A stretch of DNA of 64,000 nucleotides. Origin: Ruminococcus sp. GTDB taxonomy: Bacteria; Bacillota; Clostridia; Oscillospirales; Ruminococcaceae. The stretch lies in NCBI GenBank assembly GCA_021770655.1, contig JAETQO010000006.1, forward strand, positions 1-64,000, given 5' to 3'. Below the pieces are notes generated by a model, which saw only the letters and a list, made by a program, of their open reading frames with translations, searched no databases and was not told where the DNA came from. The translations under genes and the position numbers were made by a program. Within the stretch, counting starts at the first letter, position 1. Each line of letters opens with the position of its first letter. Below, in pieces: positions 49,119 through 50,228 of this stretch.

Positions 49119-49838
49119 CTACATATTACCTGTTAGATTCATTATTATGCTTAATGCGGCTATCGGCGCAGTCTCACAGCGCAGTATCCTGTTTCCCAAC
49201 CCCACGAGCCTTATCCCCTCATCGGCGCATCTTCCAGCCTCATCGGGTTCAAAGCCGCCCTCGCTCCCGATAAAAAGCCCTATGCTTTTTCCACTTTCAA
49301 TTTCTGCTTCCCTCAGATTTATCCCGCCGTTTTCATAGCACATGAGACCGATGTCACAGGCTTTCAGTCTTTCAACGCACTCATTGAAACTTATCATCTC
49401 CGTCACTTTCGGTACAACGCCCCTGCCGCATTGCTTAGCCGCCTCCAGCGCTATCTTGTTGAGCCTTTCCAGTTTTTTTCTGAAACTCTTTTCATCAGGT
49501 CTTGACACGCACCTTGCCGTCAAGACAGGGCATATCTCCGCAGCACCAAGCTCCACCGCCTTCTGCACGATAAACTCCAGCTTATCTGATTTCGGCATCG
49601 CCTGAAAGAGGGTGAGCCTTACGTTCGGCTCGCATTTGCTTTTCCCGCATGACAGCACTCTGCACATGACCCCGCTGTCGGATATTGTAAGTATCTCCGA
49701 ACGGTACTCCATACCTTTACAGCAGATAATTATCTCGTCTCCCAGCCTCATTCTGAGACTTCTTCCTATATGAACAGCGTCCGGTCCGCTTATGATTATT
49801 TCATCGCCCGATACATCTTCAACAAAAAATCTCGGCAT
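49119..49838 (-). CDS. rsmE: 16S rRNA m3U1498 methyltransferase (RsmE)
   Basis: SPOUT-class RNA methyltransferase, 239 residues. N-terminal PUA-like part (ISGPDAVHIGRSLRMRLGDEI), then the C-terminal trefoil-knot motifs IGLFIGSEGGFEPDEA and LGNRILRCETAPIAALSIIM. It methylates U1498 of 16S rRNA. SD GGAGG lies 6 nt before the ATG. Confidence 0.95.
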   Translation of the reverse strand: MPRFFVEDVSGDEIIISGPDAVHIGRSLRMRLGDEIIICCKGMEYRSEILTISDSGVMCRVLSCGKSKCEPNVRLTLFQAMPKSDKLEFIVQKAVELGAAEICPVLTARCVSRPDEKSFRKKLERLNKIALEAAKQCGRGVVPKVTEMISFNECVERLKACDIGLMCYENGGINLREAEIESGKSIGLFIGSEGGFEPDEAGRCADEGIRLVGLGNRILRCETAPIAALSIIMNLTGNM

Positions 49839-49940: not shown

Positions 49941-50010
49941 TAAATTTCATACTAAATACAATAAGTTTTCACACGAAGAACACATTGACGGGTTATTATA
50001 TATATGTTGC

Positions 50011-50168
50011 AGGGAGATAGAGGCTCCTGAGCGGACAAATCATTTCGGTATGTTGGCTTTTACCCCAAGCCTTCATATATACAGCTTGTAGATTATTTTT
50101 CTACTAGCTTCTCCCCTATAATTTTTTATTTTTTGGCTCCCACAGCTCTTGCTGTGGGAGTTTTTTTG
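50011..50168 (+). ncRNA. Candidate structured RNA ending in a strong terminator
   Basis: No gene on the plus strand feeds the strong terminator CTCCCACAGC-tctt-GCTGTGGGAG-T7 (50137-50167), and abfA has its own promoter downstream. Just before it, GGGAGA (50012-50017) pairs with TCTCCC (50110-50115), enclosing GGCTT/AAGCC and AGCT-GTAG/CTAC-AGCT hairpins: a closed multi-branch fold. CTCCC of the terminator could also pair with the 5' GGGAG, as in a switch. A TTGACG lies at 49985 but no good -10. I recognise no known RNA family. Confidence 0.5.
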
Positions 50169-50199
50169 TCCCGGTGCATAAAATTATACTCGTCCGCTA

Positions 50200-50228
50200 T
50201 TGCAAAAAGCTTTTTTATACAGTATAAT
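50200..50228 (+). promoter_or_regulatory. Promoter of abfA
   Basis: TTGCAA, 17 nt, TATAAT, located after the upstream terminator, so abfA is transcribed independently. Confidence 0.75.

Follow-up and report, generated by a model that had tools for sequence, protein, structure and literature searches.

Strong computational evidence, for both existence and fold, points to a real and previously uncatalogued small RNA (sRNA) family of a known kind, one member of which lies between rsmE and abfA in the 64,000-nt stretch of Ruminococcus DNA analyzed here (the window). From sequence, it is best read as a UCCC-type sRNA within a CssR/LisR-like envelope- or secretion-stress regulon. We consider it fairly probable that the RNA is a free, trans-acting molecule of ~160 nt, controlled by an OmpR-family regulator together with ftsH, htrA and an ABC transporter, and that its C-rich strands pair with ribosome-binding sites.

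Structure and distribution of the RNA

The features of the locus are collected in Table 1. An earlier note on this DNA had proposed a structured RNA on the plus strand followed by a poly-U terminator, and both are recovered: the 190-nt segment delimited there folds well (z = -4.47), as does the predicted 163-nt transcript (z = -5.85, with 0 of 200 shuffles as stable), and a 12-pair terminator stem precedes a U run. Covariation among homologues, a check set beforehand, was likewise found. In an alignment of 26 sequences, standard pairs occupy 93.6% of paired cells and 10 of 27 pairs show compensatory changes. The covariation score is 0.230; shuffles give 0.131, with 0 of 500 reaching the observed value, and slid controls do not exceed 0.057. 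Changes on both sides occur at 6 of 10 pairs in hairpin H3, and compensatory ones at 4 of 8 pairs in the terminator; H2 is almost invariant, and covariation thus says little about it.

Table 1. Features of the sRNA locus (window coordinates)
Feature	Position	Strand	Basis or remark
rsmE, divergent upstream neighbor	49119-49838	-	Synteny
Half-site-like element TTTCATA	49945-49951	+	Sequence reading; may add a regulator contact; 22 bp 5' of TTCACA
Activator box TTTCACACGAAGAACACA	49967-49984	+	Direct repeat, 11-bp period; pattern matches
Predicted -10 element TATTAT	49994-49999	+	Within pattern match 49968-49999
Predicted sRNA transcript	50006-50168	+	From -10 and terminator; both ends approximate
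Variable 5' hairpin H1, GGGAG/CTCCT core	50005-50037	+	Local fold; competes with GGGAGA/UCUCCC closing stem
Hairpin H2, loop UUUUACCCCA	50048-50078	+	Near-invariant
Hairpin H3	50083-50109	+	Pairing kept, sequence variable
C-rich strand UCUCCCCUAU, putative seed	50110-50119	+	Invariant, predicted unpaired
U/A-rich single strand 5' of terminator	50120-50134	+	Composition kept, length variable
Intrinsic terminator and U run	50135-50167	+	12 pairs at 50135-50162
abfA, downstream gene only in the window's genome	50278-51753	+	Synteny; outside the sRNA system

Two C-rich segments are conserved as predicted single strands. The strand UCUCCCCUAU that follows H3 is invariant in the 26 sequences, and its CUCCCC is predicted to be mostly unpaired in 35 of 39 homologues, while the UACCCC of the H2 loop is likewise invariant and predicted unpaired in all 39. 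At the 5' end, the H1 region is occupied in homologues by unrelated sequences, often hairpins too. As read from these comparisons, the constant elements of the RNA are two hairpins and an unpaired C-rich strand. The earlier note had instead placed the hairpins within a GGGAGA/TCTCCC closing stem, which is indeed predicted in the window's sequence (50012-50017 with 50110-50115, mean probability 0.83) and does not hold as a defining architecture: of 39 sequences, just 4, the window's among them, give it a predicted probability above 0.5, some of these cases draw on DNA probably upstream of the transcript, and a GGGAG-type 5' strand occurs in 5 of the 39. Because so few sequences are predicted to form it, the closing stem is, on these folding models, either a private feature of the window's sequence or a folding artefact; in that sequence itself, GGGAGA may mask UCUCCC.

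Within the genus, to which Ruminococcus albus belongs, a blastn search with the segment recovered homologues from 27 of 29 genomes, and the remaining two are just 70% and 76% complete. When a covariance model built on the core was run over 398 genomes of the family, 37 reached E < 1e-6; these span eight genera, of which the seven other than Ruminococcus are the gain, the genus members being the model's own sequences and matching by construction. Across the order (394 genomes), only chance-level scores were obtained outside these eight genera (E >= 0.006). A scan against Rfam 15 at gathering and relaxed thresholds, including RsaE, LhrC and 6S, gave nothing credible and no score at the gathering threshold, and the locus hence matches no family there; searches of the open literature found no small RNA of Ruminococcus. 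Most genomes carry a single copy. Genome G008 has two (L007; G008:C3:132160-132273), one of them at a contig end, which may reflect a duplication or else stem from the assembly.

Promoter box and candidate regulator

Just upstream of the -10 element, the sRNA promoter features an 11-bp direct repeat, TTCACA-N5-WWCACA, present with at most one mismatch at 33 of 44 distinct sRNA loci versus a mean of 0.4 (maximum 3) for shuffled controls. As judged by eye, the spacing of the upstream TTTCATA to this box is repeated in many homologues. A strict pattern combining the box with a -10-like hexamer 7-14 nt away yielded 38 matches in the 29 genus genomes, orthologues included and hence not independent events, versus 0 for the reversed pattern. 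Twelve of the places matched lie upstream of the sRNA. Others precede ftsH in five genomes (L170, L176, L179, L183, L199), a NatA-like ABC transporter in two (L175, L191), an HtrA-family protease in one (L169; the htrA box is clear in the R. albus clade and weak elsewhere), and a conserved membrane-anchored protein in six, one of these by promoter similarity only. A looser pattern also retrieves an Hsp20-like gene (L159).

The genes sharing this promoter box in Ruminococcus form a proteostasis and envelope set. The membrane-anchored protein under the box (beginning MIKNKVLTPVLAGVLG; L174, L181, L185, L186, L202) gave no Pfam match in the one member tested (L181). In a subclade (L005, L006, L008, L009, L010, L016, L023) the sRNA is kept with a degenerate box of the TTAATA-N5-TTCATA type, which suggests that its control has changed there, and two further sRNA loci are without a box.

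The box and -10 also stand before apparently noncoding units. Those at L193 (G028:C8:34948-35198, minus strand, two tandem copies) and L173 (G007:C12:74690-74721 onward) feature long hairpins, a terminator and the common strand AAAUCCCUUUCAUAAUUCYAUAG, and are candidates for a second UCCC sRNA under the same control. At L177 (G028:C1:8102-8133 and downstream, minus strand), the box and -10 are followed by a short unit that a strong terminator closes ahead of the next gene, possibly a third sRNA without the C-rich motif.

The candidate regulator is a response regulator, assigned to the OmpR family by Pfam. All 29 genus genomes have a single close orthologue of it, and an overlapping histidine-kinase gene follows its own. 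A box with at most one mismatch lies upstream of this gene in 12 of the 29 genomes, versus a shuffled mean of 0.06; the window's own genome, where the response regulator is encoded at G000:C5:33235-33906 on the minus strand, carries a one-mismatch copy, TTCACTTTATTAACACA, upstream of the operon, and in R. albus genomes an HtrA homologue adjoins the operon in convergent orientation. The placement of the box suggests that this response regulator binds it. Together, these patterns are good evidence, from sequence, for the sRNA belonging to a stress-type two-component regulon.

The RNA could alternatively be a free sRNA whose box belongs to a different OmpR-family regulator, with another stress as inducer. 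Direct 11-bp repeats are typical for many OmpR-family regulators, no NCBIfam equivalog scored above cut-off for the response regulator (the best, PhoB, reaching 226.6 of 296.2), and the box is absent upstream of about a third of its operons. Against this, the only response-regulator genes among the strict box matches, in two genomes, are this very orthologue, and the operon in the window's genome has its one-mismatch box; we regard a different regulator as unlikely. A Pho-regulon reading of the 11-bp repeat was rejected, the Pho regulon being unlikely because pstC, above cut-off in 4 of the 29 genus genomes, is missing from 25, and pst genes are thus absent from most of the genus.

In the scheme we propose, the response regulator, bound to the direct-repeat box of the sRNA promoter and with its own kinase-containing operon carrying the box in most species, would also control ftsH, an htrA and an ABC transporter, and the sRNA would be expressed when the envelope, secretion or protein folding is under stress.

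Mode of action

Antisense pairing is the likeliest mechanism by analogy, because UCUCCCC and UACCCC, both exposed, look like the UCCC seeds with which LhrC, RsaE, FsrA and SprD are documented to contact ribosome-binding sites (PMC4132741). By pairing with ribosome-binding sites rich in G, the two C-rich strands would reduce translation of their targets, which probably include secreted or envelope proteins. Complements resembling ribosome-binding sites number 41 versus 27 for a reversed control; the pattern revealed no mRNA target conserved across the genus, and extended complementarity was found only in isolated, nonconserved cases. A HAD-family hydrolase gene is a candidate target, with AUAGGGGAGA at its ribosome-binding site offering a 10-nt match to UCUCCCCUAU in four related species (L275, L278, L280, L287), and single cases concern L273, a methyltransferase, and L279, a lipoprotein. 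These complements hint weakly at antisense targets of the sRNA.

The same C-rich motifs are exceptionally invariant, which, together with the lack of a conserved mRNA complement, would also fit a free RNA that does not work as an antisense and instead binds a protein, be it RNA polymerase, a translation factor or a C-rich-binding protein. We consider such a protein-binding RNA improbable, as its shape is not 6S-like, it has no Rfam match, and antisense sRNAs in Firmicutes usually pair through an exposed UCCC seed.

The earlier note had left the choice between a free small RNA and a riboswitch-like leader of abfA, and the comparison of loci decides for the former. The RNA does lie directly 5' of abfA in the window, and its 5' GGGAG can pair with UCUCCC there, both in favor of a cis-acting riboswitch or attenuator. 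Among 50 oriented loci (a few duplicates included), however, abfA lies downstream in the window only and in none of the 49 others, where different genes follow, often in antisense orientation, while rsmE is the upstream neighbor in 41 of the 50. As the note had said, no plus-strand gene precedes the RNA, rsmE being divergent, and a promoter-like site for abfA (50200-50228) follows the sRNA terminator. The alternative stem is not conserved, and the proposed switch between GGGAG and the terminator's CTCCC finds no support because GGGAG itself is not conserved. By synteny and for want of a conserved 5' strand, an abfA leader is rejected as highly improbable. With abfA downstream only here and rsmE the usual upstream neighbor, the RNA is, on comparative grounds, a stand-alone small RNA: its conserved box and -10, terminator, covariation and independence of the downstream gene favor the proposed free transcript of ~160 nt, and computationally it forms an independent transcription unit, with its own promoter and intrinsic terminator and no dependence on neighboring genes.

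Less credible still is a short mRNA encoding a micropeptide from the AUG in H2 (MLAFTPSLHI...), rejected here because, for all that the AUG and ~10 codons are kept as nucleotides in most homologues, two species have UAG directly after the AUG, the reading frame is not maintained, the predicted peptides range from 1 to 39 aa and lack a common C terminus, and the AUG sits in a stem.

Implications and relation to known systems

More tentatively, and with somewhat less than even confidence, we envisage that one two-component stress system in Ruminococcus and its relatives drives several unrelated UCCC sRNAs, the present RNA and the L193/L173 candidate among them, beside ftsH and htrA. If true, this would amount to a Gram-positive, sigma-E-like response in which proteases clear the envelope and a noncoding arm curbs the production of secreted proteins. 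Ruminococcus species are major fiber degraders of the rumen and gut and secrete many hydrolases. If an sRNA in these anaerobes answers to a proteostasis two-component system, control of secretion at the post-transcriptional level would become directly testable in them, and envelope-stress systems with an RNA arm would extend to Clostridia. The family as described is Rfam-ready and comes with a defined promoter box and a candidate for its regulator.

The closest parallel for the promoter is the CssRS secretion-stress regulon of Bacillus subtilis, whose canonical CssR box, TTTTCACA, the sRNA box resembles (PMC6749698). Direct repeats like TTTTCACA are present upstream of the -10 at the sRNA promoter, and, as in CssRS, the box in Ruminococcus occurs both at the two-component operon itself and at a protease gene of the htrA type. 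Unlike in CssRS, ftsH, an ABC transporter and the sRNA are added; the response regulator is at most a candidate orthologue of CssR, and no CssRS-controlled sRNA was found in the literature searched.

Among sRNAs, LhrC1-5 of Listeria monocytogenes are controlled by LisRK and have several exposed UCCC motifs with their own promoter and terminator (PMC4132741). The Ruminococcus sRNA shares the exposed C-rich motifs, the separate promoter and terminator and a putative envelope-stress two-component control, and differs in having no Rfam match, a single copy in most genomes, other hairpins and possibly a regulator box and targets unrelated to those of LhrC. The conserved exposed UCCC or C-rich motif that marks UCCC-type Firmicutes sRNAs is predicted here as UCUCCCCUAU and UACCCC, exposed in single strand and loop as in RsaE/RoxS, FsrA and SprD, from which the family differs in having no counterpart in Rfam, in being confined to one Clostridia family and in its pairing being putative. 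In enterobacteria, the sigma-E- and Cpx-dependent sRNAs RybB, MicA and CpxQ form the noncoding arm of the envelope-stress response beside proteases and chaperones. Although the Ruminococcus sRNA has no homology to these, belongs to a Gram-positive organism and has only putative pairing and protein partners, it would by analogy work in the same way, as the noncoding arm of an envelope-stress response.
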